Origin: Acarospora socialis
Lineage: Eukaryota; Ascomycota; Lecanoromycetes; Acarosporales; Acarosporaceae
NCBI GenBank assembly: GCA_025617375.2
Contig: JAMYGW020000011.1
Coordinates: forward strand, 434,001-498,000
Direction: 5' to 3'
Length of the DNA stretch: 64,000 nucleotides
Shown here: piece after piece, positions 3,445 through 64,000 of the stretch
Position numbering within the stretch: position 1 is the first letter of the stretch
Layout of the letters: every line of letters starts with the position of its first letter
The notes under the pieces: generated by a model
Databases searched by the model: none
What the model was told of the DNA's origin: nothing
What the model saw: the letters and a program-made list of their open reading frames with translations, nothing else
Position numbers and translations under genes: made by a program

Positions 3445-4616
3445 TGATTGTAACGAGATGACGACAGCGACATTTGAAAAATTGATGTATGCTCATATTA
3501 AATGTACGTCATATACTTTATACTGCTTCTGAGTCCTGCCGTACCGGTTTGGAAAACAATATAGATCTGGTGTTAGAGCCATCTTACCACTTCCTACTTC
3601 GGCCGTCTTACTGGCTCACAATCTTCTGAGTTGCTACGAGTACAGCAGAGGGTTTTGCGATGATCAATCATAAAATTTTCAAAAAGTAGCAGAGCGAGGA
3701 GAAACATACGGCAACTGAATGCTGTTGATGCTTGCATAATGCATACCTTCTTGTGCAGAAGGCTGAGGCGCGTTTGCCGTTGTTCAGGCTCCACCTTGCC
3801 TTGCTCTGAGCGTGCTCAGGCGCTCAGGCTGAAAGCGGCAACCGCTCAGGTCCGAAGACGGAAACGGACTTTGGTAAGAACCAGTTTCGTAACAGACCAT
3901 AGAGATAAATAAGTAGGTGCGAAGTCGGCGCACAGAGACTTATGTCCACCGACTTCGTACTCGTACGGTAGTGGATGGGATGAAAGGATGCATGTCACGT
4001 GTTTATGGTGGGGTTATCTTGTTGTACAGAGTACACGTACGAAGTAGAGACATGCCCCGCTAGCTGAGGGATTGAGTATGCGAAAACCCTCACTACCTAC
4101 TCGTACCTCTCTTGGCTGGAGGTCTCCAGCGTTTGTAGTCGGAGGCGTTTGCTGGGACTTTAGTTCCTAAATCCGAGGGTTCTTGGAAATGCAGCTGCCT
4201 AGTCGGTGTTACGGAGATGAGTTCTGGTAGGCGGCGAGGTGAGAACTCTCTACTGTTGCACTCAAATTACGGGGGTTCCAGAGGTTTGTTTGTTAGAGTT
4301 TGAGTTCATGCAGGTAAGAGTAGTTTCAAGTGCCGCCTGATCATCGGTTGTACGGGGATGAGGTTTGTTGGGCAGGCAGTTACTGTTTGAGCATCAAAGC
4401 AACCACGAAGAACATATTGTAGTCTGCAAGAGAGTCTTATTCCCTAGTAGCTAGCCTCTAAAGAAGTAGAGTACAATGAGTCCGACGTAAGCCACCTAGA
4501 AACAGAGCAATACCGTTGCCGTCACGCCTCCAGCACGGATCGAGTCCGACACCCATGAGGTTGAACGATGATGATGTTCCCGATCGCTGGACTAGCGTTA
4601 TGCGTTGCGGAGAGCT
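3445..4616. other. Intergenic, 1.2 kb
   Basis: No coding or RNA gene supported. Holds the 3' flanks of two convergent genes. Short CAGGCGCTCAGG-type near repeats lie around 3810-3860. Confidence 0.5.
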
Positions 4617-5043
4617 CTAGTGCTTGGCAGCCTCCTTGTTGACGTCGGCCTTGGTCTGCAAGTAGCGGAATGGTCAGTATGCCGGTACAAACACGTGCGA
4701 TGAGGGTGGGAGGAGACGTACGTTGTGCGAAGTCTCGTCGACCTTGGCGCCTAACGCGTCCTTGGCAGCGGTGGCACGGTTGCCGAGGGAGGCATCGGAG
4801 TCTTTGGCGACCTCTGGTTTCGAGAACGAGACAAGTCAGAAAGGCTTCCTTTGAGAGGGGTGAGGGTGATGAACGAAGATGAGACGCACCGGTGTTGGCT
4901 CTCTTCTCGGCCCCTTTGCCGGCACCCTGGATGCTCTCGGACACGTAGTTGACGGCGTTCCTGTTTGACACGTGTCAGTTCGGTCTCGACGACAAACGAC
5001 ACAACGGTCAGGCGTGGGCAACGACATACTTAGCGGTCTCCAT
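4617..5043 (-). CDS. grg-1: Glucose-repressible protein GRG-1/CCG-1 homologue
   Basis: Four small exons on the minus strand: 5030-5043, 4890-4960, 4722-4813 and 4617-4655, with introns of 69, 76 and 66 nt. The spliced product is 71 residues, the same length as Neurospora GRG-1. It begins METAKNAVNYVSESIQGAG and ends NTKADVNKEAAKH, typical of this family of small hydrophilic, Ala/Lys-rich proteins. In Neurospora the gene is induced by glucose loss, stress and the clock and is among the most abundant mRNAs; the biochemical role is unknown. A TTTAAA box near 5176-5181, about 135 nt upstream of the ATG, may serve as TATA element. The first exon codes only four and two thirds residues, so automatic callers may miss it. 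Confidence 0.93.
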
Positions 5044-5675
5044 TGCGAAATTATATGTGTTTGAAGGGCTTAGAGGGAAGATGTGTTTGAAATTTGGCTT
5101 GAAAAGTCTGGTAGGTTGGAAGTTTGCGTTGTGTTGAGAAGGATGAAAAGTCTGGATGCGAGCAGCCCCGCCGAGCTTTTAAAGTGGCATGGAGGGGTAA
5201 AGTGGGCAGGAGCGCAGCCGCCCCACTACGCTTGCGAAAAGCGAAACAAGGGATGATGTCACGGTCACATGCCGAGGTCAGTACGCGCGGTAAGGTGGTC
5301 TGGTTCTGGAATGTGACGCCTTTCGGGGCGCTAAGGTAACGCTAAGATTAAAACGCTCAGCTGGCTTCGGTTACAGCCGGTTTCAGCTGCCTGTTCTGGA
5401 ATGTGACTGATCCTCGATCCTGTTATACGCAGCAGTGATTTAGGGCTGTGTACCACGTTGGACGAAGTATGTCTGTATATTGTGATAAAATAGGCACACA
5501 GTTGGACGATCATTTCATGGTAGGACTATACATCGTCTATGTACGAGTAGAAGGTTCGACAACGTGAAGCTTACTGTCCTAGAAAATGCTTCGGCAACAA
5601 CCGTAAAGATTCTTTCGCACCGCCAGCAATCACCAATTGGAGCACTCCAGAGGCAAGGCAAAGTATCTAGCAACC
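5044..5675. promoter_or_regulatory. Divergent intergenic between grg-1 and RPA49
   Basis: About 630 nt shared by two divergently transcribed genes. Apart from the TTTAAA box on the grg-1 side I see no clear motif. Confidence 0.4.
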
Positions 5676-7361
5676 ATGTCTGAGAAGAAGCGCAAACGTA
5701 CATCTGAGACAGTCGATCGTCCTGGGAAGAAGGTTGCTGTTGATGCTTCTCCATCTGTGGTAAAGGTCTCAGTGGTAGCGAGTAATGATGAACTAGCCCC
5801 AGTGATAGGTATGTCTGGTGAACCTGCTCACCACCAAGCCATATGTACATGTGCAGCTGCAATGGGTAGAGTACACAATGTTGATGCTGACGTTCTCCAG
5901 CATCCACACCAGGCCTCTCCCTTCCGACGAAGATTTCATTCCAACCCTACCGCAAGACGCAGCGTAATGCATCTATACGAACCCCAAGCAATAGACCTGG
6001 TAACACGTCTGAACTCCTTTTGCACTCCTCAACCCATCCCAAGGTCGATTACACCGGCCGCGAGGAAGAAGAAGGTGGCAGCAACAGCGTCCTCAAACAC
6101 TATGTCGGCATTTACGACCCTACGACGGGCGAGTTACAAGTCACGCCAGCACGGAAGCTAGTCGTTCGGGGAAGCGTGCGTCAAGAGGACACAATTGCTG
6201 CCGAAGATACAGGTGGTGATAATGGCATGGAATCTGCGCCCAAAGTACGCCTCTCCCTATAGCTGCCCTTTCCACACCTCTTCATAGCGCTAACGGCTAC
6301 CAGCTCTCCTCGCGCGCCGCTCTCGGTCTGTCCTTCGGTACCAAGAAATCCCAAAAAGCCATCCGCGCCCTCACTGAAAACGCCATCTCCCCCCGCAAGC
6401 CTCCTAACGGGACCACCACCTCCGCCTCCGCCTCCTCCAGCCAACCCCTCGACCCTCTCGCTGCAGCCGTCGTCGACTCGATGGCCAGCACGACCTCAAC
6501 CATGCCCACGCGCGAAGAACTCCAATCGGCCGTTGACGACGCCAAACCGCGGCCGAAACCAAACATGCAAGCGACTACTCCGTCAGAGGTCTACTCCGTC
6601 TCGGATCTGGTGGGTGGGGAGGAGACATTACGGCTGCTTGTGGTCAGAGATTGGCAAGACGCCGTAGCCGCCAATAAACCCGTGCACACGAAATCGCGGT
6701 TCGTGAGCAAGCGCCTGGCGAATCTGGCGCAGAGCGGAGACGTCAAGAGGTTGAAAACGCTTCGCTACCTACTAATCCTATTGGAGTTCTACGGCAGTCT
6801 CGGGTCTGGGCCGAAGGGTATCAAGAAAGTGCCACAGAGGGAAAAGCTTCGGAAAGCGATGGGGAACGCGAACGAAGGCATGACGGAAGGCGTGAGGAGG
6901 AGGTTCGCTGATAGCAAGTACGCGCCTCTAATTTATTCCTTTGCTCCGTCTGCGGATGGAATGAACTGAGACCGTTACCAGCACCCTCAACAAATGGCAC
7001 ACCGACAATCTCTTAACCCACATCACCGCCCTGGCCCTCACAATCGACCATTTCGACCTCGACCTCTTCGACCTCCGCGAAGACCTCAAACTCGACCAGA
7101 AAACGTACTTACTCTTTCCTTCTTCCCTTCTATTCTGGCGCTTGCTTTTCTCCAACATACCTGCAGACCCTCACTAATATGGAGCAATATAGTATGACGC
7201 AATACGCACACGAACTAGGCTGTAAGATTTCCGCACTGACGGAATCGGAACGCTCGAAAACGGGCCTGAACAAAACCGAAGCGGCGGCACACCGCATGGC
7301 GAGATTGAGGTTGCCGTTGGAGTTTCCGAAGACTAGGGTGCCGAAGGCGGGGAGGCGGTGA
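5676..7361 (+). CDS. RPA49: RNA polymerase I subunit A49
   Basis: Five exons: 5676-5808, 5901-6244, 6304-6917, 6982-7104 and 7193-7361; 460 residues. Start chosen at the ATG giving MSEKKRKR, preceded by in-frame codons without another ATG. A49 pairs with A34.5 and stimulates Pol I elongation and rDNA transcription. Family signs in order: an N-terminal dimerisation part with SELLLHSSTHPKVDYTGRE and HYVGIYDPTTGELQV, then ALGLSFGTKK in the linker, then a tandem winged-helix part with YLLILLEF, LLTHITALALTIDHFDLD, and a basic tail ending PLEFPKTRVPKAGRR that resembles the yeast C-terminus. All exon joins keep phase, and the last intron has a CTAAT branch site. Length fits the family (yeast 415). 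Confidence 0.92.
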
Positions 7362-8037
7362 GATGGACATGAAGGAATGAGGAGTGGCGGCAAGATAAAA
7401 GGGACGGGAGGAGTAGGGAATAGGTGGAGAGGAGGTAGAGAAGAAGCAGGGAAGGAGGCAAACTACTGCTCTGGAATAGTCATGAATACCGTGAGCGTCT
7501 ACGGTGGTGAGTGTAGTCGTGTGTACAATGTGTACAGTGATACATTGTCATGGATTACCTTATGTGCTCTCTGCTGGGCTCAGACAATACCAACTGTGCT
7601 TCAGATGGAGCCTCTCGAGGCAAGCAGTGTCTTAGGTAGTCTGTATCTAGCCTCTCCTCGAGTAGAGTAACCATTTCACGTGTTGGGGCATCGAGCATCG
7701 CACGCATATGAAGACAGACTTCAAGTTTACAATAACTAACAAATATGAGCTGAAGATCGTAAGCGTCAAGCCACTTTAGCAGCCATCAAATCCACTGCTG
7801 CAATACTCAAGAACACCCGTGAACTTTCGACGATGATATTGACCAGCACGCTTCCTTCGGCACGACCTGCAATCCGCCCTACCCACTCCACCACTTCCAC
7901 CCCCCTAACGGCGTAAAAGCAATTCGGACGGGACGTTTCGAGATAGCGTTATGAGATGAGACGAGTTGGTGGCAGTACTTTCATTGACTTGTCGTGACGA
8001 GAAGGCTGCAAGCTGGGATCGAAGAGTTGCGAGGTGT
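7362..8037. other. Intergenic, 0.7 kb
   Basis: 3' flanks of convergent genes RPA49 and RPL41. No gene supported. Confidence 0.5.
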
Positions 8038-8224
8038 TTACTTGCTGCAGGCCGAAAGACGATCAGCACGTGTTTGATCGCCCAGAACACAACTATGCCC
8101 ACAGCGACCGGGAAAGCCAGCAGGAAGCTGCAGGAAGAAAGGACATGACATACCTTCTCGCTCTGGTCTTTCTCCTCTTACGCTTGAGACGTCGGACGCG
8201 CTTCTTCCTCCACTTGGCTCTCAT
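8038..8224 (-). CDS. RPL41: Ribosomal protein eL41
   Basis: The 25-residue peptide is spread over exons 8154-8224 (71 nt) and 8038-8044 (7 nt), separated by a 109 nt intron with GTATGT donor and CTGCAG acceptor. The first exon reads MRAKWRKKRVRRLK followed by more Arg/Lys, which is the near-invariant eL41 sequence. Splicing adds the last Ser-Lys and TAA, giving the usual RARSK-stop end. This is a small basic peptide of the large ribosomal subunit at the subunit interface. Both exons are far below the usual size limits, so the gene is easily missed. No frame problem seen. Confidence 0.95.
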
Positions 8225-8593
8225 CTTCGATAACTTAGTGAACTGCTCATTCCAGCCGATCGGTTAGCCACTGACACTGCGGAGGTCGATGGAGGGATTC
8301 TTGAAGTGTCTGCTTCGTAGACGGGGAAGGTCGAGGTGGAAGGGGAGATGGAAATACGTACTCGTTATGTGGGATGAGTGTCGTGTTGGTGGAAGAGCTT
8401 GGGAGGAAGCTCAGGCGGGGTGGGAGATGTGTGCGCGGTCGCTTAAGCGAGATGGCGCTAAGGGCTACTGGCGTTCCCGTTCCGGTTTGGCTTAGTAAAG
8501 CGTATCGATTTCTACAGTATGACTCTATATAATGCTGAACTGGTGCGCATGTTGTATGTTTGGTGTTGGTTAGTGGGAGTTTGATGTGGCAGG
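8225..8593. other. Divergent intergenic between RPL41 and FHA kinase
   Basis: Roughly 370 nt serving as upstream region of both genes. RPL41 may have a 5' untranslated intron here, but I cannot place one. Confidence 0.35.
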
Positions 8594-11099
8594 ATGGACG
8601 AGGGGCTCGGAGCGGAGAGTAAGAGTCCTAGAAGAGTAGTTGGATATCTTCGTAGTTATGTCGATGGCTTTGACGAGCAACGTGAGTGTTGACTTTTGGA
8701 GATGGGCATGCACTGACTTCAAGATAGATGAGGAACCGATTTATGCGAATTTTAATCTACGTATGGGTCGAGACAAGAAAAGATGGTAACCGACATGAGC
8801 ATTTTCCGTATAGTCCAAGTATTAAACTCTCACAGCGATGTTGTTCTTGAAGATCTTACTGTTTCTAATCAACACATACGAATTTACTGTATTCAGTTCG
8901 AGCAGGAAGATGTGTCTGATATTCCGCCACTTGTCTATGCGGAAGACCTTTCTAGCAATGGTACCTACTGGAACGGAACCTTAATAGGCAGAGGCAACGG
9001 AGGTGTGCTCCTTAGCGATGGAGACGTGCTGCGCATCAGTCCACGCCTTTCGTTCAGCTACAGTGGAGCGGATCCATTACCACCTGAGCCTCGTGATGAG
9101 GTTCAGGAACGAGAGAAGAAGGTAGACTGTCTTAGCCAGGACGACCGACTTAAACACTAACTCGAGAAGCTATTCCAACGTCAGTATGTTGTTACCGAAC
9201 GCAAGATCGGTGCTGGGGGCTTTGGGGATGTTTATGTTGCGCTGGATAAGGCTAGGGGTCGACAGCTTGCGTGCAAGATCGTAAATTTACGGAAACTCAA
9301 GGTGAAGCATCTACAAGAATGTCATGTAAGTACGATTATTCTAGCAGCTACACACGAGGATGATAGGGTATCACTCACAAACATCTGTACCAGGTAAGGT
9401 CACTGCGGAATGAGACCCTAGTCGACCAAAAGCTCAAGAAGTACATGCGGGAAGCAGAGATATTAAGAAATCTTAGCCACGTGAGACATGCAAGAGATTT
9501 ATCGGAAGATTGTATGCTCAATGGGACGTAGCCTAACATCATCGCGCTGGAGAAGGTGTTCAAGACTGACAGTACGATGTAAGGCCCATTTCCCTGAATA
9601 TCAGGGGCTCACTAAATTTGTCCGGACTGTAGATATATCTTCGAAGATCTAATTACTGCTGGCGATTTGTTCTCGTATATCGGGTACAAAGGAGGGAAGC
9701 TGCAAGACGTGGAAGCAGCGGTGATAATCAGGCAGATACTCAAAGCGCTAGAATATCTACATGAGCGCGGTATCGTCCACAGAGACTTGAAGCCCGACAA
9801 TATTCTCGTTACCTCGCTGGCCGAAGGGTCGAGGGTGGTGCTGAGCGACTTTGGGGCTGCAACAGTTGTTAGCTATCAAAAAACTCAGCAGCAGAGGATG
9901 ATGACCCAGATCGGTACATTGGAGTACACAGCTCCGTAAGCACCAAACCCAGTTTCTCTTCTTAAGCTTGCACTGATTCTTCTGGATCCATAAGCGAAGT
10001 CTACGGATTCAACAACATGCAGACGGGCAAGAGCGGATATACGAAGGCTGTGGACATGTGGTCACTCGGTGGTGTTGCGGCTACACTTTTAAGCGGCACG
10101 TCTCTCTTTGCTGATTCCAAAGACGACAACTTCAAAACAAATCCCGATGAAGTCATCGCTAGGCTAGCGGCGGAATGTAACCTGGCGCACCTTGATCAGA
10201 GTCAAGACTGGCAGCATGTAGGCGAGCGTGCGAAGGACTTTGTCCGAAAGCTTCTGGTATTGAACGAGACGAAGAGGATGACAGTCAGGGAAGCACTGGA
10301 GCATCCGTGGTTCACCAACGAATACCACCGGAACGAGTTCGAGGCCGTATATCTAAGGGCAATCAGACACTGGAAGCCTCGACCAAAGAAAGCTGACATT
10401 ATCGAAATCTTGGACGTTAACAAAGCGAAGGAAGGCCCATCTCCGAAGCGCCAAAGACTTAGCCCTCTTCCACGGCCATCCAGCAAACGAGCACTCGTGC
10501 CATTCGAACCGCCCTACATCCCTTTTCACCGGCACATCAGCAAGTTGAGTTCTCCTAGGGCGGAATCTGGGTCGCTAGCTGCCTTAAACGATATTTCTCC
10601 AGCGCCTTGGAAGGCTCCCGTCGGATGGATCCGCTCACTTCACGATGCAGCTCTGCTTCAGGACAAACCCATAAGGACCGACCTGGCTTCTGTAAGGCTT
10701 CGGTGGCCCACAGCTTCGACACCTGTGACGCTGAAACGGAAGCTCGAAAGCAGACCGTCAACACCTCAAGCTTTGGAGTCAAGTAAGGCGCTCTACCCTG
10801 GTACGGAGACGGGCAGCATTCCGTGGAGATCTATTAGTTCCGACGCGGATGAGGATGAGGTAGCGCTTGTACCGACCTCATCATCGGGACGCAGTTTGTT
10901 AGCATTACTCGATGATATGTCAATGAGCGGCATCGCATGTCCCACGAATTCTGATAAGATTGAGGATGATGACTTGGCGCACGTGGAATCCTCAAGCACG
11001 ATAAGAGAAGTTGGTAGGCCAATCTTTCGAGAGAGCCAAAACGGGGACCACACAAGAGATGATTGTCCAGCTCGAGACGCTCTACGACGTTCGTACTGA
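8594..11099 (+). CDS. FHA-domain Ser/Thr kinase, Chk2/Rad53-like
   Basis: Eight exons: 8594-8681, 8728-8785, 8836-9121, 9185-9325, 9394-9480, 9532-9578, 9633-9935, 9995-11099; 704 residues. An N-terminal FHA domain (about 25-130) shows [12 protein letters not shown] and [11 protein letters not shown], the phosphothreonine-binding signature. The kinase domain starts near 145: GAGGFGDVY loop, CKI lysine, HRDLKPDN near 284, DFG near 307, APE across the last intron. Such kinases relay DNA-damage or replication stress signals after phosphorylation by ATM/ATR-type kinases. A single FHA and no second one, unlike yeast Rad53. The intron 9122-9184 is needed to remove an in-frame TAA and has a CTAAC branch site. 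The C-terminal about 250 residues are low-conservation and Ser/Pro rich. An alternative last splice near 11014 could give another C-terminus. Subfamily assignment is inference. Confidence 0.85.
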
Positions 11100-12317
11100 A
11101 GATGTTATGAATTCTATTGGTCAACCTGTCCAGAATCTCAAAGCAGGTGTCCTCGCTCTGGTGGACCTTGGTAGACCTAGCCGAATAGGGCTGACAGAAA
11201 GCTTGTTGCTACTGTTTGCGGGTATGTGGGTGAGACGACATCAGTTCGACTGATAGGAGCTGTGTTTTGACTCGATCCATAGAGTAGGATTCACCTGCTG
11301 CTGTGTCTCTGATGAAGCACAAGTATGACAAACAACCACTAGAGGTACGATCTGAATTAAGGTTCTTTGCGTCGCGTATCTCTTGCTCCTTGAGGTATCA
11401 GATTTAACTACCTATTGAGGAAGACGAATGCCCAAGAAAGCCACTCAGCTTGATTATTCAGTCAATCTGCATACAGGTATGCAGTCAAGTCCAAGTACTA
11501 TATGCTCAGATCCGAACCGAGCTCGAGCAATACAGCTGCAATGCTCGATAGCTGCCTAAGCATGTTACATTACATGTCATGAGCATGCTTGAGGGCGTGG
11601 CACTGCCACAGTTCTGGCTATTTGCAAAGTTATTTGGTGTGGTGCCGAACAATTCTTCAAGTCCACAGTATTTTTGAGGTACTCATTTGATGGCGGTGCT
11701 TAGTCAGATTCCGCGTTTCGCGCTGACATAATGAAAAAACATTGTATTACTACCTACCTTATATAGATGCTCTTCTTGGATTGAATGCTGACAGCGCACA
11801 TAACTTTATGCGTGGCGTTCCGGGCATGTTCACCGTTCTGGGAATTCCTCGTACGATACCTAGTCACTGAGTCCGAGTCTTCATCCGTCCCAGCTATTGG
11901 TTTCGCCGATACTGTTATGTGCGAACCGAGCGACCCCCAGCCGGCGAGGCAGACTGAACGGACGGCACGCACGTACACCAGTCAGATACTCTCACACCTG
12001 AATTGTCGTGGATTTCCTATCGTGACACAAGCGAAGGCTTCCTTTGCGTCTGCTGCTGAACATCATCAGCATGCGGTGGGGCCCGGTACCACGAATGTCA
12101 TCTTGCTGACTTACCTAGGGAGGCGGCTGAGTGTCATCGGTACTTCGGGATTTGCAAGCATCTTTTCCGTAGTCATTATTGAATTTTATAAGTTCAAGAA
12201 GCTTACTTCTTGACTGTTGCGATCTTATCAGCCCTCTTCAGATCTTTCACACTCTTTCTATGTTGCTCATCTCTACCGTAACCAATCCTCCACCACAGCT
12301 CAGTTGCATCCGGTCTA
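11100..12317. other. Intergenic, 1.2 kb
   Basis: No gene supported. A 142-codon frame at 11785-12213 has no recognisable motif or splice context. Confidence 0.45.
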
Positions 12318-13497
12318 ATGATGATACTATCCCTTTCCAGGGCCGGGCTCACGGTATGCATATGCCTCGGGAATGGCCCTGTTCGCTGGGAGGCCCTTCT
12401 AGCTGTAACATCCGCTAATCAAGCGTTTTCAAGGCACTTGCCTGGACCTTCACTGCTGTCGCTGCCGCGTTGACAGCCGGCCGTTTTGCTATTCGGATGA
12501 AAAGGCTAAACGGACTTCAAGTCGACGACGGTCTTCATGCCTTTGCGCTGGTCACTCTCGTTGTCTACACCGCCCTCTTTACCGCATCACTGCCAATGAT
12601 GTATGCTCTACGATCTTGGGTTGAAGAGCAAGGACCGGAACCTTCAGCGTCAACCCTGAAGCGATACCATCTCTTTGCAGTAGTGGCGTCCATCCACTTT
12701 TGGGTCTGCGTCTATGTTGTGAAGTTTGCCTTCTTGGCCTTTTATCGACATCTCTTTGGTATATCACGCAGCTTTCTGAAGGCCTGGTGGGCTGTCTTTG
12801 CTTGCACGTCGGTGGCGTTCTGTTACTCTACGGTGTCAAATCTCTTCACGTGTGGCACCAGCCCGGATGAACTCAGTAGGGCACCTTGTCTTCTTACCTG
12901 ACCCTACCGCTGTGAATGAGTGCTAAATATAGATCAGTGCACTGTCTATCAGGTCTTACAGCCCCCGTGACGATGATGAAGGCTCAGTGTGTGCTAAACG
13001 TAATGTCTGACTTAGCCAGTATGACCTCTCTCCGCCTGATGCTCTCCACCACTAACCTTTGCTGAATGACAACAGTTATGGTGTTACCGCTCTGGATGTT
13101 GAAGGGTTTACAACATATCCCACGGGCTCAGAAGATTGGCGTGGCAAGCCTTTTCTCCATAGCCACTGTCGTTATCATCGTCGACATCCTTCGGTTGATA
13201 TATTCTATCGGCATAGGAGTTCTTGCCATGGATAGCATATGGGACACGTTAGAGCCTTCCATCGCTGTGATGATCTCTGCCTTGCCCATTTACCGAGCCC
13301 TCTTTACTACGGGGAAGAAACGAGACACAAAGTCCTCTATGAACGTTGTTCGTACTTCGCACAACAGACATTTTCCCAAGCCTGTACACGAATTAGTTAG
13401 CATCATCGTCCCAGCAACGTCGCACACGACCAATATCACTCCCACACATCCGCCACCACCATACAGGCCGGTCATGGAGCCTACATTGCCTGGATGA
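12318..13497 (+). CDS. Rhodopsin-like fungal integral membrane protein, frame break
   Basis: Exons 12318-12353 (start uncertain), 12434-12875, 12933-13018 and 13076-13497. The product has the layout of the fungal rhodopsin-like seven-helix family near PTH11-type proteins: helix with ALAWTFTAVAAALTAGRF, a helix starting at VDDGLHAFALV, HFWVCVYVVKFAFLAFYR, WAVFACTSVAF, then NVMSDLAIMVLPLWMLK and later helices, with a Pro-rich cytosolic tail. The introns fit well (branch sites GCTAAA and CACTAAC). However exon 3 has phase that fails by one nucleotide around a CCCCC run near 12962-12966: upstream QCTVYQVLQP and downstream VTMMKAQC are in different frames. This is either a recent frameshift, a sequencing error, or a 29 nt intron that seems too short. 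Likely role in sensing or surface signalling is unknown. Confidence 0.62.
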
Positions 13498-14978
13498 ACC
13501 CCGGAGCTCGTTCAAGGTTTCATACGATGTAAGATATCCCGAGTGTGGAATTGATCCTGGTAGGAACCAGAAGTGTTGTTTCGGCCGAACAGCTGGCTAC
13601 AGTTTGAGACAGGCATGTGAAATTCGAAGAGACGGACGGCACACTTGACCCGGATGAATAAGCTTGAAGAAAAAGCACAAGTCGGGCCCAAACAGGGACG
13701 GTTGGCTTCTACAGAGCAGAGAGGGAAGCCGGATTGATGATCACTTCGGTCCCAGGTGTTGCCCGGCGTGGCCACTAGTTATATGTATATACATACGCCC
13801 ATCAAAAGTCCTGCCAATGTACTTACGCACTGCACTTGGTACTGATGGTAATGGCACCATCCAACAACGGGTATTCGGTACTGTGCTCGTCCTGCTTCTA
13901 GGCATGCTCGGCGTCGAAGCTAGGTGGCCGCCACGGGGAGCATACTTGTAAAAGAAGAGGTACTGGATCGCATCGGTCCGTGAGCATCCGAAGCAAGCAT
14001 ACATATCGGTATGTTGTTTGGAGCTATGACAGCCTCTTTTACAAACCGTCACCGCAACCGTCCGGCTGACATTCACGCCAATCCCAGCTCGCTATCATCG
14101 CCGCTGTCAGCATTGTTCACATACCACCATCTCAGCAGCCACTACTAATACCCATGATTATTGATACCGTCTACACCGCCACCGCACCCAGAAAGATGGG
14201 TGACCGAATGCCAACTTTGTCCGGTCTACCCTAAACGCGACCCCTCAGGTTCGAATAAGCCGAGCATGCCGAGTTTGACGCTTATCTTACTCAACCCTCT
14301 ACCAACACCGCGACAAACCAGAAAAACAGGCACCACATCTCGAGCTAAGATTGACTACACGATTCTACACTCTCTAACCAACTATCGGGACATCAACTAG
14401 ATCCTGGTCACCTAGATTCGAACCTTGATGGTTGTGAGGGATGCGAAACCATCGCAGCTTGGTGTCTACAGAAACAACCGCATTCCCAAAACAAACCACA
14501 AGAGATTGACACGCAATACAGAAGATAAGCAATAATAAGCGACCAAGAAAGAGCAAAACATACAACAGCGAGTATTCGTTGGTCGTCACCGACCCAACTA
14601 CTGATCCGTCGATCGAAGGTTTATGTACGGCAGAGCGGACGGGATGCCCAGCTGTCCTTCGTCTGTGGTCGTATGTGAAAGATCAGGTTCTCAATGTGGG
14701 ATAGAAGTCACCGTTAGGCTGCCTCCCGCGGGCGAGACACGGCAAGTTAGAGTGAGTCAATGTCCTGGCTTTGGTGTTTGAGCGGTTTTTGAAATTCGAG
14801 TAGAGATTGGATCTCTGTTTCCATGGAGGAGGTATATTGCACAGCGAAGGAGCCTCGTCCCTACATTCAGATATGTGGTCGACCGGGGTCTGCACAAGCA
14901 CTGTGGAAAGGTACAAAACACGTGCTCATGATGGTCATGAATTTCGCTTCCTTATTCCCACCAGCCCTTTTCTTCTCG
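13498..14978. other. Intergenic, 1.5 kb
   Basis: No gene supported. Open frames are short and without motifs. A GATTCGAACC string at 14413-14422 suggested a tRNA but no cloverleaf forms. Confidence 0.5.
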
Positions 14979-47837: not shown

Positions 47838-50182
47838 CTATGAAGCGCTCCCACCGTGACCGCCTCCGCCTTTGCTCTGGTCCAGCAGGAGCTTCGGCTT
47901 GATAAAGTCCTCGTCCAGTTGTCGGAACCAGGCCGCATGATCCTCCGTGGTGCCAGAAAACAATTGACTGATGGCCCCCGTCGCAGTCAAGTGGCTCTCC
48001 CCACCCTCCCGATTGTTCGCCACTCCAGACGTTGGGTATGAGGAGGGCGCGGTAGACGCAAACGTCTCCCTGACGGGTCTTGGTGAAGCTCTTCTCTTCG
48101 GTGACCTTCGAGCAGCCGCGGGCGGGAGATCGCTGTCAGAATCCAAATCCTCCTCCTCGCTTGGGGTGCTGCTCCCCTGGCTGAGTAGGTTTTGTGTGGC
48201 CTTGTCTCTTTCCTTTACGTTCAGCGAAGAATTCTTCCTCGAAGCCATTGTGCCGTCAGGTCGGATTGGGGGGCTCTGGCTGTTGTTCCCACTGCTGTAA
48301 GTGGCGAACCCTGGACCAGCAACACCATTAGACCGGGTGTCGATATGACCGAGCGCCACTGAATGATCGCTGCGCCGCGGCGTGTGGCCTAGTGCCGTAC
48401 CAGCGCGCTTGTAATATGTGCCGTTGGTGGCAGTCTCAATGTCGAATTCATCGTCCGAATCAATCTCGTCCACAACGCCTGTACGGATGCCAAGGATTTC
48501 CAGCATACGTGCCGTTGTACCGCCGAAAATGATAACCGTAAGCACGACAACGACTAGCACTGTCGCTCGGAGAGCAGCTCCGTTTTCTCCGGTGAGACCT
48601 GCCGCGAGTGCCACTCCTACGGCACCACGCAAGCCAGCCCAGAAGAGCATCGCCTGATAAGACCCCGGTAGCTCGTCCGCCACGTCTTTGCCCCGTCGCT
48701 TCGCCCGGTACCTGATGAACCAGTTGATCGCCCTCGAAAGTGGAAACACTGCTGCCCATCTGGCGGCACAGATTCCCACAACTGTGATCAGTATGAAGAG
48801 AGGTTTAAACTCCAGCTGTGTTTCGGTGAACAGTGTCAAACCGAGGTAGATGAAAATGAAATTCTCCGAGAGCTGAGCGAGCACCTGAAAGAGATACTTG
48901 GTGGTGAGTTGCGTGCGACGAGACATGTTGTAGTATGCATAATGCTTGAGGGTGATGCCGCAAAACAGCAGAGATACGATGCCTGTTGAAGCCCCGTCAG
49001 CCAGCTGCACATGATTTTGATTGCTTGATAGAGAGCATACCCGACATGTGAACTCCGTTGGAAAAAAAGTAGCTTGCATAAGCGATCAGGACGACTAAAC
49101 AGCTTTCAATCTTAGGAAAGCGTCGCACAAGCGTATACTTGAGGCCCAGTGCAGTGCCGATACCAACAGCAACTCCAATCATCAGGCTGCCGAAGAATAT
49201 CAGTAGAAATATCCCTATCGCCTCGAACAGGCTAAGAATGCTCAAAGACCCTCCACCAGGACCTCCGGGTTTATATCTTTGTGCGGTTTCGAACAGTACG
49301 ATAGCTATAGCATCGTTGAGGATCGATTCGCCAAAGATGACGGTATAGAGTTTCGGGTCCACCTTGTAGGTATTGAAGATGGCGAGAATTGTGACAGGAT
49401 CAGTGGCCGAGAGGGTCGCGCCGACAGAGAAGGCTTCCACGAAAGAGATGCTCAACCCATCGAGAGGTATCCGTGTCCAAAGGTACAGAATAAGCCCTAG
49501 CACGACCGCAGAGATGAAAGTGCCGGCGAAAGCGAAGGTTAAGATAGTTCCGATATTGCGGAAGAAGTTGGCCTAGAAGCGCTTCAGCAGATTACCCTAC
49601 TCGACTCCATATGAGGCAGTATAGACGTACTTGGTGTAGCTCATACCCTGACGCCAAAATAATAGGCGGTAGTAGTAGGTTGAAGAAGAATTGGTAATCG
49701 AAGCTGACAGAGTCTTGGATCGACCGTCCGGGTGTAAGTCGTATGACAAGGCCCACGATCATCCCTTGGAACGTTCGCGATCAGCTACTGAAACAATTCC
49801 TCGTTCTACACGTGCAGCAGGCCATACCAGCAAAGATCGAGATGACCGTCTCATGTACCGCTTGTATCTTCTTCTGTTGCAGCATATAACTCGTAAACAA
49901 CGCCGTTATGAGTAGCATTATCAGTATAAAGAGGGCCCATGACGAGAAGATCTCCTTCTGGCCGGCTTCGGGTTCTGTTGTTGTCGTTATCAGTCCGCGC
50001 AACGTTGGTCAAGCAGGTGTAGGCCGGGCGGAATTGCTCACCATCTGGGTCTGCGTCTTCTGCTTCTCGTCCTATACGATTTGACGTCAGTGACTGCTCG
50101 GCGCAACAGACCGATCTCTGAAGACTCGAACTCGATACGTACTGAGAAGCTCGAAAGCAGCGGAACCTATGACGGAAGCCAT
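47838..50182 (-). CDS. NHX1: Endosomal/vacuolar Na+(K+)/H+ exchanger
   Basis: Six exons on the minus strand: 50143-50182, 50042-50071, 49828-49974, 49631-49764, 49041-49572 and 47838-48982; 675 residues. The 40 and 30 nt first exons are fixed by phase and splice sites. Family signs: WALFILIMLLITALFTSYML, HETVISIFAGMIVG, FFFNLLLPPIILASGYEL (amiloride-site region), NFFRNIGTILTFAFAGTF, GATLSATDPVTILAIFN with the ion-binding ND/TDP residues, FGESILNDAIAIVLF, and FWAGLRGAVGVALA. About ten to twelve helices, then a long Ser/Asp-rich cytosolic tail. It exchanges luminal protons for Na+ or K+ and sets endosome and vacuole pH. The assignment to NHX1 rather than a plasma-membrane NHA is firm. Confidence 0.94.
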
Positions 50183-51178
50183 TGTTATGTAGGGCCGACG
50201 GCGTTAGAGAAGGACGTTGGGAAATTTAGAATGACGCATATGCGATCTGCATAGAGGTTGGGCTCTGTAGGAACATCGCACGCATCCGTTTCAGCATGCG
50301 CGAGTGACTAGGATCCCACATGCAAGGTGTCTCTACTCTGTACAATACCTCAAGATACCTATTCTAGGCGCATTCGAAGGCGGCAGTTGCCGCCACTGAA
50401 AATGCTTCATACATGTACGAAGGCGAGTCAGAAGTAGTAGTCACAACATCCAAGTATATATGTCTAATACTCTGTCCAAAACATTTAGCACATTGAGCAA
50501 GGCTCTGAGCCAATTCCTCAGAGTACTTCATCCACTCATAAGGTTGCAATTTGTCTCACTCCTCCAAAACAGCTTGTTTCAAGACTTCTTTGTTAGTAAA
50601 TAGATGTTGGTTTTGTGAGACTTGAGTTTGACAGTTACATGACAGTGAACTTCATGAATTTATATGTGATAATGTGTATATAAAATTGTCAGGTAGTCTT
50701 CACAAAATAAAAATATATGTGCTTTAGCTAAAGTCCTCACAGCCTTTAACGAATCAGCAGCCTACAGACTCTAAGTCAACGCAGAGATCTTCTATACCAA
50801 CACCAACTGCGCCTTACACCAAGGAAAAAGACTTTGGCCCTGTGCAGGATCGCGGTGGAGATGAATAAGAGCGGGATAACACTAATAATACCATAGCACT
50901 CCTTAACAGCTCATTAGAAATAGTAATACGCATTCATCCCCCGGACTATGATGCTTGCCCGGCTATAGTAGATAACATGTATCAAGACATTATTATCGTC
51001 ATACCGTTGCTTTGAGTCTCTAATAGATAGTAATCTATCAGGTGATGCTTATAATCATAATATAAACTCATGAGATGTAGCTGAAGTCAGAGGACAATCA
51101 GCTACGCAATTCAGTATATCCATGAATGAACTGTGTGTCAAGTATTTCTGAAAGGAAAAAGACAGAGGGGGAAAACCC
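50183..51178. other. AT-rich intergenic, 1 kb
   Basis: Clear rise in A+T from about 50560. No gene or repeat structure recognised. Confidence 0.45.
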
Positions 51179-51183
51179 AAAAA
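51179..51183 (-). terminator. Pol III T-run terminator of tRNA-Lys
   Basis: Five consecutive T on the minus strand, five nt past the tRNA 3' end. Confidence 0.7.
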
Positions 51184-51187
51184 GGAA

Positions 51188-51327
51188 AGCCCGACGAGGG
51201 GCTCGAACCCTCGACCTTGGGATTTAGCTGAGATATTGCTAAGAGTCTGTGAATAATTAGTAGGGAGTCACATGTAGTTTAGTCTGGGCTTCATTACCCC
51301 ACGCTCTACCGATTGAGCTAGCCGGGC
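51188..51327 (-). tRNA. tRNA-Lys(CUU) with two intervening sequences
   Basis: Minus strand. The 5' part GCCCGGC-TA-GCTC-AATCGGTA-GAGC-G and the 3' part AGGTC-GAGGG-TTCGAGC-CCCTC-GTCGGGC form acceptor, D and T arms; box A (TAGCTCAATCGG) and box B (GGTTCGAGCC) are intact. The anticodon arm is rebuilt only after removing two segments: a 51 nt insertion at 51247-51297 between positions 30 and 31, and 16 nt at 51224-51239 after position 37, the standard tRNA intron site. The result is stem TGGGA/TCCCA around CTCTTAA with anticodon CTT, 72 nt plus discriminator. The discriminator would be T, unlike the usual G for tRNA-Lys. If the insertion is not removed, position 33 would not be T and no normal anticodon exists. 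Could be a working gene with an unusual intron or a silenced copy. Confidence 0.85.
51247..51297 (-). other. Spliceosomal-intron-like insertion inside tRNA-Lys
   Basis: 51 nt reading GTAATG at its start, CCTACTAAT as branch-like motif near 51257-51265, and TTCACAG at its end, on the tRNA strand. Exact excision joins GTGGG to ACTCTTA and restores a perfect five-pair anticodon stem. The element is in the size range of the protein-gene introns of this window (46-121 nt). A one-nt ambiguity of the ends exists because a G flanks both junctions. Confidence 0.75.
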
Positions 51328-51686
51328 GTGAATTCAGCACAAGCTATAAAGATATGTAAACCTGATTATGATCAATGTTTCAAAGCTGTTAAGCTTGGGG
51401 CCACATGTAACAAGGAGCACGCATTAAAACACTTCCACAACACTAAATTCAACTGCAATTGCATATAAAACCTAGTATTGAATCCACCAAACCTGATTGT
51501 TAAATGTGTAGCTCGCTAAAATCTGAAAATGGGCAGAGCATTGGGTATACAGAGTAAGTTAGTGTGATAATGGGGCACATTGAGATTTTGTGGTATTGCG
51601 CTCGTTTGTGTGTGCCACGAAAAGTGAGATGTGGTCTCATACAGAGGTAGTCTTTTGGTTCTAGCATAAGCAGAAGACTTTTATGA
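51328..51686. other. AT-rich spacer
   Basis: No gene supported between the tRNA and the MITE. Confidence 0.4.
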
Positions 51687-52197: not shown

Positions 52198-54420
52198 CTA
52201 ACACTCGCTGGTTGCGCTTGATTTTGTCCGCCTTTTCCCGAATACTATTATCAAAACTCGACTTTCGTTTATTTCTTTGCGTCCTGTGGCAGGGTCAGCA
52301 ATCTCATTCAAGGGTCCACTTGACACCCCGGTGACATCATACTGCTCTTTGTTGTTCGATGGCCGTCTCCCTATCGAACAAAGCAATTCATAAGGGTTAT
52401 TAGTGTACTCGCCCTTCTGGACGAAACGTCTCAGCTGTGCTTTGGTATACTCGAGCGGCTTTCCCCATAGAAAATCCACGATCGTATTCAACTTCATTGT
52501 GTTGTAGTCACCCTGGAGCTTCCTCCATTCCACATGACGAGACTGGTCCTTTGAATCGATCCAAGAAAATCGAACACCCAAGGTGCAGGCCGGGTCGTCA
52601 GGGTAAGTATCCTGAGCACAGCGTTCTTCATGCACTTGTCTTTCATTGACCAAATCACAGAGAATGTGGAGGGACCCAACCTCACAGTCTTTGGGCCAAT
52701 TGAACTTCGCATCAAAGAATGACACCTGCCGATACGTTTTGGTGGTGCACTTCTCATCGTCTTTAGGGCTTCTGTATAGCTCTCCTTGGAGAAGTCTGAA
52801 CCTCAAAGCGCTCTGATAAGCTGACAGGTGAGTCGGCTTAACTGCTAGAGCTCTTGAGTTACATGCAGAGACCATCTTATCAGTGCTTATCCTTCGCAGA
52901 GGGTCTCGGGGCTGAGCAGCTCTCTCCTTTTGAAATTGATGGGTCCATTCAGGCGCTAAGTTCTGCTTCGGAACTCGATGAATGATGCGACCGTTATTCC
53001 TGAAGGCGATTCCTTCCTCTTCGAAATGGATTGTCACCTGTTTCCCGCTTCTGGCCAATAAGTAGGCCTCTTTTGTGGCTCTGATTCTCAGGGGTTGCTG
53101 GTATTGGTCGATGGCAAACCGTACAATACCATGGGAATCGGGGACAATGTGTTTGCCATGCCAGCAACCACCCGTAATCTTGTTGCTAATACGCTTGTTG
53201 GCAGCACGACGGCTCAATTCAGTCATACGGTGATTTTGCCGAGTACTAAAGTCACCATTCACTTCATGCAATCCCATTTCATGCCTAAAAAGGGTGTTGT
53301 AGGCCTTGTGAGAAATATGATCAGCCATGGCGTCTGGAACGGACTTCTTCGCTTGGATAAGATCCTCCAAACTTTCTGAAAGAACCCTCTGGGCCCAATT
53401 CCAGAACCTATCGTCAAAATGACCTCTCTCCAATACCACTCCACGCGCTCTCTCGATGCGTCGGTACTACCAGAGCTGAGCAACTGGCGACCAGTGTTCC
53501 ATCGCAATTGATTTATTCGGGGATAGCTTGCCTTGACGGTACTGTTCAAAGAATTTTTCATTGTGTGGCTGGCCAATGATCCAAAGGGAAAAGTTGAAGG
53601 TAGCATCAAGACTGATCGAACCATATGATGACCCATATGGTCGAAACCCAATGCAGCCAGGATGTACTGCATAGCAAGTAATTCTTCTAAGACCGCTCTC
53701 ATCAAATTCAAGCTCAAACGGAAGATTCTTCTTCCCCAGACCTATGGGTACCTCAACCGAAAGATGCTCACGGGATAGCGTTCTCCGATGACCTTTCATC
53801 GCACAGTTGCCGCAAACAATCAAAAACGGCATTGGAAGTTTTTTTAAAACGTCGAAGGATAGCTGATCATGTAGATCCCGTACATTCATTGGGTACTGGG
53901 TCATGGGACATGTCCCACGTCCGAAACAGCTCTTCTCTGCCCTCCAATGCCAATCAAAGCCAAACATAAACTCTTCTGATATTCCTTTTCCAGCAAGCAA
54001 CTGAATAGTTCGGCACTCAGGGTCCCAAAAATTGCGAGTGTGACAGGTTTCCCTCGTTTTGACGTGAAACATGAGTTTAAGCTTGGCGTCTGCAGGTCCA
54101 GAAGGAACTAGTAGTCGTGAGTTGTCCTCACCAGATAACTGAGATTCCTGGTCAAAGAAAGTAGCCAGGCGAGAGTCAAGTTCCTGGGAGAGCTCTTTGG
54201 TGTCGATTTTCCCAGGCCGGCAAAAGGATGCGTCAGTGAAGAAATGTTGCAATTCAGTTAATTTTTCTTTACTGAGTGATTTATTTGCACTTTCTGCGAA
54301 GCTGCGGGCAACCGATTCGCCGGAGAAAGGTGAACATGGGGATGGTTCTCCTTCAAGAGCACTTGAACGGTGCGCTTGGCGATAGCTTTGCATAGCTTTG
54401 AATAGACGTTCAGCTGCCAT
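52198..54420 (-). pseudogene. Orphan 740-codon frame with one internal stop
   Basis: One continuous minus-strand frame from the ATG at 54420 to the stop at 52198, broken by a single TAG at 53467-53469; both halves (317 and 422 codons) are otherwise open and in the same phase. I recognise no family. The N-terminal half has spaced Cys/His (RETCHTRNFWDPECRTIQLL, KSCFGRGTCPMTQYP, CGNCAMKGHRR, HPGCIGFRPYGSSYGSISLDATF); the C-terminal half has HEMGLHEVNGDFSTRQNHRM, NRALAVKPTHLSAYQSALRF-like and CTLGVRFSWIDSKDQ segments. The stop fits a CAG-to-TAG change. It could be a recently disabled accessory gene, or be read through; an intron at the stop is not convincing. It lies in the AT-rich island beside a MITE, which fits accessory DNA. 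Confidence 0.65.
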
Positions 54421-55293
54421 CGCCGATGCTGGAAGGAATATGTATAGCTTTTCAAATAGCAAAGAGGTCTGTATAGACGATATCTTTAATGGTGCGGGGC
54501 GACAGGATCATAGAGCACCGGCACCGATAGAGTGTAGATGAGTGAGAGAAGGTCTCGGGGCCGGCCAAGGGTCGCCGGTGAGCAGTTGGTTATAACGTTA
54601 TAGCCCAGCCTCATATAGCTTTTCGAGCTTCCTTCCTTAGGAATTAACGTCTTCTAGGATGAAACGAAAATGATGGACAAGCGAAAAGATACAAGGGTAT
54701 GATACTGTATCTTTACGATATTGGATTAAAGCAGCGTATGGAAACCAATCAAGTAGATGCGCACAGTAATCACTATACCTATTTGTACCTAGGTAGGTAG
54801 TTACGATTCGGTAGATACTCCGTAAGGTAGGCAGCTTTTGCCCGGACTTTAACCTCTTTTCCCCTGTTAGTTGGTGCCCTTCATGTGAATACTGTTTCGA
54901 CAGACCTTTGATAACACTCGCCTTTCTTTTCTCACTTACTCTACTTTCTCTCCGCATAATCAGGTACAGCAGCTACCTATAGCCGGGAGGATTTCTTCCA
55001 GATCGCCCAACGCCCCACGTGGCACAGCAGTCACCGCTTGATCCGGTCATGCTGCGCATGGAAGTATAACAGCCTGGTCATCAGAGGTTGACAAGAGATC
55101 ATGGACGACGCTTGCAACCATCAAATCAACCGGTAGATCTAAGCTCAGCACACGCAGATGACTGCTACCCATCGCCGCCATATAAAAGGGCCGTTCGCGA
55201 GAAGCAACCATTCCTCATAACCAGACATCTTGGAATAAGTTGGTGGATATACGCCTGGCTTTGGATCCTGTGCCGCCCTTTGTTCACCCTTCG
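54421..55293. other. Intergenic, 0.9 kb
   Basis: Divergent upstream regions of the orphan frame and the transporter. No gene supported. Confidence 0.4.
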
Positions 55294-61897: not shown

Positions 61898-64000
61898 AGT
61901 AGCAGCTGCGAGCCCTACCAGGAGGAGTGCGACAACGAAGTGAATGTTTTGTTTCGAGCTGGGGTGATCGCGGAATCAAGTATTCGAGAAGTGGGATGTT
62001 TTTTGAGGCGGTGCTCGAGAAAAGACGGCTTGATCGGCGCAGCTTGGGTACGAGAACTTGTGACACGGGAGGGGTGGGATATAGATGCGATGCAATCTAC
62101 TGGAGGGACCTGATCGATTGACTTTTAATTGAAGATGTGAGGAAAATCCTTCACCCGATCGAGAAGGAAATAACAATTTCGATATCGAAAACGGATTGAT
62201 GAGGGTGATGTTGTCGGTGTTCTCGAGGTGCCTGCCTCGAAGCCTGTCGATGCCGACGCGAAAAGTGGTCGAGAGAGAATGGGATGTACAGGCCCGCCCG
62301 TGGAAGTGTCCAAGAACCGGTTAGTCTCACCAGCGAAATGATTAAACCTTTTGGGGATAGATAGAACGAATGAAGAAGAGAAAGAAGCCTCGATCTCGAC
62401 TGCCCTCTCCCGACCGATGGAGGCAAGTGTGACGGCGAAAGTGAGGACGGTGATTTTCTGGGGAATGGTATGAAACGTGCGACAAGAGAAGTGAAGGCGG
62501 GAGAAGGTAGGTATGAGGTATGTATGAGAGTTGGGTAAGATGTGTGTAAGCAAGGTGTGATGGGTGGGTGGGTGTAAGAGAAGAGGATTGGCAGACTATG
62601 TTTGAGATATGGGGGGATGGTGGGTGAGGAAGAGGTACGTAGGTAGATCGGAGGGAGGTTTGGGGTGTGGTTTGGAGTTTAGAGTTTGGGGAATGATTGG
62701 AGAGTGGACAGCGGAGTAAGAAGTACTATGTATCATACAGGGATATTCTGTACGGAGTACCTGTAACTTGTAAGGGCGGCGTGTGGAAACAGCCGCCAAA
62801 GGGGGGAAGTCCGACAAGGATGTCCGAAGTTCTCAGGTCGGTGATCCAGTCGATGCTTTGGTCTGCAAGCGCCTCGTACATGTAATTTTTCGAGAGTCTG
62901 GAGTAACAATCCTGATTTGGACTCTATGGGCCTCTCAGGAATGCGATGCTCTTCTCTGGACGGCTTGCGGGCAGGGAGACAGCGGTAAGGTAGATTATGA
63001 TTGTGCGAGCCAGTGGGTATTATTAGCGGTACACGTCCACACCTGTGTACCGAGTAATATGTGTAATACCTCCCCGGTAATGATGACCAGACTCGCATTG
63101 GCGGCCGCTGGATGGCCTTTGGAAGCAGTCCTAAGGTATACGGCAAGGCCAAGTAGGTACACGTATGTGTACTCCGTATACGTACAGTTTTGCACAGTAA
63201 GGTAAGGTACCTAAAGTACGGGTGGAGTACCTTAGGTCCTGCTTGATATGATCCCGGACAATTATAGGCCACGCTGACTCGTCACTGATTTCTACTATAG
63301 GGCGGAACAAAAGGCCCTGAGAAGCCGTTATGGGAGTTCACCGCGCTGGCCGCAGCCGCAGCCGCAACGCCGGAGCAGAGAAGTCGAGGCAATCCAAAGT
63401 CGTCCTTGATTTTCCGCAGCGAAGAAATGGGGAATTGATGTCGCGGGAACGATGACTGGATGGGTTATTTGGATGATGGAGTGGATCGATGGTGTATGAA
63501 TAATGTGGCGCCTCGGACAACTGGCAACCTGACCCACTGACCCACTGGCAAATGCCTCTCTCAGAGGGTCAGTCAGCCATTGTCGGCCGTGAGATGATAA
63601 TGATGATGACGATGATGATACAAATGATATGGTGGGGATAATGATTGATCTGGTGTCATTCCCTGCGTGGCTTTGTAGCGCGCAATTGTTTGCTCTAGAA
63701 AACCTGATCGATCCGTGGACCGATGAGTGATAATTTGATAAGCTGACTGATTTGAGTCCTCTCCGTCCCTCGGGATCCAATGATCCTCGAGGAGAAAGTC
63801 CAGGATCCAGAGACGTTGGTACCTTTTTCACGCAGAGCTCCAAGCCCGCATGAGGTGTGTTCTAATCCTGGTGGGCCGTGCATAAGGTACGGTCAGGTGA
63901 GTGAGCACCTTATGGTACGTACTACCTCAAGGGATGCAGAGTGGTGGGAAATGGTTTAGGTCGAAGCAAGCGGGAGCTCGTATCAGATCCTGAAACCGTG
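61898..64000. promoter_or_regulatory. Long upstream region of STE12, 2.1 kb
   Basis: No coding or RNA gene supported up to the window end. Runs of AAGGTAC/GTACCT occur at about 63198-63236 and again near 63886-63922. A (GAT)n run lies at 63592-63620. Confidence 0.45.
63592..63620. repeat. (GAT)n microsatellite
   Basis: Imperfect GAT units over about 29 nt. Confidence 0.8.

Follow-up and report, generated by a model that had tools for sequence, protein, structure and literature searches.

How does a nuclear tRNA gene come to hold, within its anticodon stem, a segment that looks like the intron of a pre-mRNA, and how would such a segment leave the transcript? The question is raised by a tRNA-Lys(CUU) gene in a 64,000-nt stretch of Acarospora socialis DNA (the window, to which all positions refer), where the initial annotation described a 51-nt insertion between tRNA positions 30 and 31 in addition to a usual 16-nt intron after position 37. 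The presence of the two insertions is confirmed, and the arrangement is not an ordinary one. The gene, for which no strand had been specified, is on the minus strand and consists of the following parts.

51188..51327, minus strand: whole tRNA-Lys(CUU) gene, 140 nt with both insertions (Rfam tRNA, 44.8 bits; the 73-nt product is Lys(ctt) by ARAGORN)
51247..51297, minus strand: 51-nt insertion at 30/31 (or 29/30), spliceosomal-intron-like, with GT..CAG ends and TACTAAT; scored, and its alternative placements enumerated
51241..51243, minus strand: anticodon CTT (CUU, Lys), which follows from the removal of 51 and 16 nt
51224..51239, minus strand: 16-nt intron at the canonical position 37/38, whose removal closes a 7-nt anticodon loop

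We read it as a nuclear tRNA-Lys(CUU) gene of the fungus. Its stems are complete (acceptor stem of seven pairs, one of them G-U, D stem of four, and T stem of five); after both deletions all stems are formed in the 73-nt product, and the minimum-energy RNAfold structure of the latter is the cloverleaf. After removal, the product has the complete cloverleaf, U33, and the anticodon CUU that a functional tRNA-Lys(CUU) would have. It is identical to a mammalian tRNA-Lys(CUU) at 66 of 73 positions; the anticodon arm is the same throughout, and the T-stem pair 50/64 differs but is compensated.

The Rfam tRNA model matches the gene end to end (1–71 of 71, cut-off 29 bits) when a 301-nt stretch is scanned by itself, while two Rfam scans of the whole window do not report a tRNA gene at this place. 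ARAGORN calls no tRNA here if introns are disallowed, and when introns of up to 300 nt are allowed it reports Ser(GCT) and places a 65-nt intron at 32/33. If the 51 nt are spliced, genes of this type would be liable to be overlooked or misnamed by widely used RNA and tRNA finders, as they were here by the Rfam scan of the whole window and by ARAGORN.

Deletions were enumerated between tRNA positions 26 and 44, where 84 nt are present and 17 are expected, with a five-pair anticodon stem and U33 as criteria. No single deletion in this interval gives a valid anticodon arm, and a single conventional intron with some other anticodon is thereby ruled out. When one of two deletions is kept at 37/38, 44 solutions remain, of which 12 have five Watson–Crick pairs; within that set of 12, deleting 51 and 16 nt is the only way to obtain the Lys anticodon CTT, and it appears twice in the list because of a one-base slide. 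The DNA boundary of the 51 nt thus falls at either 29/30 or 30/31, and it is the GT-AG convention that fixes it. The proposed pair of insertions (51297..51247 at 30/31 and 51239..51224 at 37/38, read along the gene) is therefore borne out, as is the claim that removal restores the anticodon stem and a Lys CTT anticodon. In the RNAfold structure formed without the 51 nt, UUAGC/GCUAA pairs the 16-nt intron with the anticodon side.

GT..AG ends are seen in two of the 44 solutions, the 51-nt one and a 14-nt one with the anticodon AAA. The alternative GT-AG reading (14 + 53 nt) was discarded on two grounds: 14 nt is less than a spliceosomal intron needs, and the reading would set Phe on a body that is Lys-like by comparison with the mammalian sequence. 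Two ARAGORN readings were rejected because their introns are not at 37/38, namely the Ser(GCT) call and Pyl(CTA), the latter obtained after removal of the 51 nt, with the 16-nt intron at 33/34.

Three signals of pre-mRNA introns can be recognized in the 51 nt, with scores given against 14 introns of the window.

51292..51297, minus strand: donor-like GTAATG, weak, with T at +5 and G at +6 (-0.5 bits versus 3.9 to 8.0 in the 14 introns)
51256..51262, minus strand: branch-site-like TACTAAT, the branch A being 10 nt before the last G (7.2 bits versus 5.1 to 9.2)
51247..51249, minus strand: acceptor-like CAG, in CACAG (6.7 bits, equal to the best of the 14, which range from 2.5 to 6.7)

The GT start, TACTAAT about ten nucleotides from the end, and the terminal CAG are all present as first described. 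The broader claim that the insertion looks like a pre-mRNA intron is supported: branch site and acceptor are within the range of the window introns, but the donor, which the initial annotation did not discuss, is weak and has no G at +5. The summed score of the 51 nt (13.4) is below that of all 14 introns (15.1 to 23.0), and the length is slightly under their range of 53 to 94 nt. Compared with U2-type introns, the GT..AG ends are present as GT..CAG, and the motif RCTRAY is present as ACTAAT, 10 nt before the acceptor, within the 6 to 36 nt taken from PMC5832005; the donor GTAATG is not near the fungal consensus GTRWGT, derived from fungal U3 introns in the same paper, and departs from it at two positions (+5 and +6). 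The U3 introns themselves have GTRWGT in 88 of 136 canonical donors, nearly all others being off at one position (PMC5832005).

The score matrices were built from the same 14 introns. Starting from 23 candidates, 17 were listed (six that are open without splicing were left out), and three of these were dropped: 21199, which overlaps 21185; 48592, antisense to the Na+/H+ exchanger gene; and 32117, by eye and by no rule. Seven of the 14 (6245, 21185, 59933, 49040, 41323, 35066, and 15513) overlap a Pfam-matched open frame; the other seven (19656, 23527, 24215, 26747, 46081, 50041, and 61721) rest on frame continuity. The selection rule demanded G at +5, so that the donor comparison is biased and harsher on GTAATG than is warranted. 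A relaxed search gave 191 uncurated candidate pairs with a branch motif.

A chance origin of these signals is unlikely. Scores as high as that of the insertion are reached by 10 of 127,898 51-mers of the window, both strands included, and GT..YAG ends with RCTRAY at 6 to 36 nt are seen in 14 of 127,900; both counts include the insertion and maybe real introns too. The latter test is passed by 77 of 1,000,000 mononucleotide shuffles and by 309 of 1,000,000 first-order Markov sequences. Control 51-mers thus carry such signals at about 1 in 3,000 to 13,000 (about 1e-4 to 3e-4), a case picked for its striking look being such that the figure of about 1e-4 overstates the significance if many inserted tRNA genes exist. 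Only one 51-mer of the window, the insertion, combines GT..YAG ends with an exact TACTAAY.

The gene also has elements like those associated with transcription by Pol III.

51309..51320, minus strand: A-box-like TAGCTCAATCGG (Pol III internal promoter), read off the sequence
51199..51209, minus strand: B-box-like GGTTCGAGCCC (Pol III internal promoter), read off the sequence
51179..51183, minus strand: T5 run, the first T-run of 4 or more past the gene and a likely Pol III terminator

TAGCTCAATCGG and GGTTCGAGCCC are so named for their resemblance to the A-box and B-box motifs, respectively. No T-run of 4 or more is found within the gene. Relative to the free ensemble, the cloverleaf costs 6.1 kcal/mol with the insertion and 0.5 without it, which suggests, by folding model, that the 51 nt would have to leave first. 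The effect is not specific to the 51 nt: among length-matched random inserts, 40 of 300 shuffles and 59 of 300 genomic pieces disfavor the cloverleaf at least as strongly.

The reading that we prefer, with a probability of roughly 0.45, is that the tRNA gene, transcribed by Pol III, has gained a spliceosomal-type intron, which perhaps leaves the transcript ahead of any cut by the tRNA endonuclease. In this reading, 51 nt resembling a short spliceosomal intron of the U2 type would have been gained in the anticodon stem at 30/31, beside the ordinary 16-nt intron. Pol III would transcribe the gene, in which A-box-like and B-box-like elements and a T5 run are present; the spliceosome would then take out the 51 nt, freeing the cloverleaf from the competing insert, and the tRNA endonuclease and ligase would excise the 16 nt afterwards. 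The more specific claim, that the Pol III precursor of a nuclear tRNA is spliced twice by two unrelated machines, at a spliceosomal intron and subsequently at an endonuclease intron at 37/38, is possible, if doubtful.

A dead or dying copy of tRNA-Lys ranks close behind a gained spliceosomal-type intron and is quite possible. One of several synonymous genes would here have received a random 51-nt insertion, with signals that are fortuitous or too weak to function. The weak donor and the summed score under all 14 window introns are in favor of such a copy, as is the 6.1 kcal/mol by which the insertion disfavors the cloverleaf. According to Yoshihisa's review, where a eukaryote has many synonymous tRNA genes and one of them bears a short insertion in its D or T arm, that gene is supposed to be a pseudogene (PMC4090602); this supports a dead copy by analogy only, the insertion here being in the anticodon stem. 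On the other hand, a dead copy would have to be young, given a complete tRNA body whose stems all form; and GT, branch site, spacing, and YAG would have met by a coincidence found in about 1 to 3 per 10,000 control 51-mers.

It is improbable that the tRNA endonuclease removes the 51 nt as a non-canonical tRNA intron of the kind seen in Cyanidioschyzon or nucleomorphs. Non-canonical tRNA introns are described in archaea, a red alga, and nucleomorphs; in these algae, introns at odd positions, several per gene, do exist, and 30/31 is a known archaeal intron site (PMC4090602). The A. socialis gene resembles the ectopic introns of Cyanidioschyzon, nucleomorphs, and Crenarchaeota in having a second intron outside 37/38, with 30/31 as the shared archaeal site (PMC4090602). 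It differs from the archaeal cases, which are cut at a bulge-helix-bulge, in carrying mRNA-type signals; no such motif was found at the junctions of the 51 nt by a strict or a loose scan, a null that carries little weight because the same scan missed the 16-nt control intron. The 16-nt insertion belongs with the canonical eukaryotic introns of tRNA genes at 37/38; the 51-nt insertion lies elsewhere. Also against the endonuclease is the view that the eukaryotic enzyme finds its splice sites by their distance from the tRNA body (PMC4090602), and the mRNA-type ends together with the branch motif would be a coincidence. Searches for non-canonical introns have used an archaeal model, according to PMC8450103.

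Splicing of the 51 nt only in a Pol II read-through transcript, e.g., in the 5' leader of the Na+/H+ exchanger gene, is very improbable. This gene (Pfam PF00999 at 47841-49572) does lie downstream of the tRNA on the same minus strand, the tRNA being in the stretch before it, but such a transcript would leave the exact restoration of the tRNA unexplained. An assembly or sequencing artefact is the least probable of all, since the window contains no N, and GT-AG ends with a branch site at just the tRNA-restoring point would not be expected from one.

Going upstream from the tRNA on the same strand, one first meets a pair of adjoining open frames, 345 and 422 aa long (52201-54504, minus strand), without a Pfam match at 0.01 and possibly one gene with an intron or a frame break. 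An INO80 homologue is encoded at 45179-41277 on the minus strand (1777.6 bits to INO80 chain 6fml_G and 1069.4 bits to chain 8euf_Q, which are presumably from Chaetomium thermophilum and S. cerevisiae, respectively), a difference in score that points to Pezizomycotina. The window also encodes a STE-type factor, in agreement with a fungus. A lone, full-length 5S rRNA gene is found at 14557-14676 on the minus strand (Rfam 57.5 bits, cut-off 38); filamentous fungi commonly have their 5S genes dispersed. At 766-3441 on the plus strand, an open frame of 892 aa, counted from stop to stop, has a diverged ubiquitin domain (PF00240) at residues 5–70, the remaining approximately 820 residues having no Pfam match at 1e-5.

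As to the origin of the insertion, we infer intron gain. Of the three explanations offered in the initial annotation, the captured intron of the spliceosomal type fits best; its mobile, introner-like aspect is unsupported, as the 64-kb window holds no clear similar copy of the 51 nt (best other match, E 0.29), and there are no direct or inverted repeats of at least 8 nt in 51100-51400. On the plus strand, 63076-63093 agrees at 16 of 18 bases with the insertion's first 17 nt and the tRNA base that precedes them (E 0.28); on reading that stretch, we took the match for chance and not for a copy. Exact and degenerate patterns of the 5' half of tRNA-Lys gave 0 matches in collections of virus and prokaryote contigs, which are uninformative on fungi. 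Equally uninformative on fungi is the comparison of a 191-aa piece of the exchanger with genome contigs of the same type, where 140 pattern matches were obtained and no relative was confirmed by tblastn.

In filamentous fungi, mRNA-type introns occur in nuclear ribosomal RNA genes. These, which also figure in a title cited by PMC11782384, resemble the intron proposed here as spliceosomal-type introns in a non-coding RNA gene, and differ in that the host RNA is a Pol I product and not a tRNA. Fungal U6 and U3 introns are the precedents. An mRNA-type intron is present in the U6 snRNA genes of S. pombe and other fungi, and this, too, is a spliceosomal intron in a small structured RNA transcribed by Pol III (PMC8917221, PMC5832005); however, the U6 snRNA is itself part of the spliceosome, while the intron proposed here would sit in a tRNA, beside an intron of the endonuclease type. 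The introns of fungal U3 snoRNA differ in their average length of 92 nt, in their stronger donors, and in the host RNA (PMC5832005). As of 2017, no small structured RNAs other than U3 snoRNA and U6 snRNA were known to contain introns often (PMC5832005). No tRNA with a spliceosomal intron is named in the available parts of PMC3978253 and PMC11782384, or in the titles and abstract openings among the matches listed in open-licence PMC; a report may exist elsewhere.

If the precursor is indeed spliced twice by two unrelated machines, tRNA would join U6 and U3 among the small structured RNAs in which spliceosomal introns are known. If the 51 nt are spliced, this would show that a tRNA precursor made by Pol III is accessible to the spliceosome and that tRNA genes are within reach of intron gain, and two different splicing machines would be needed for one tRNA. 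Cases of this kind are predicted if reverse splicing can target any nuclear RNA, and the gene may therefore also bear on how new introns arise.
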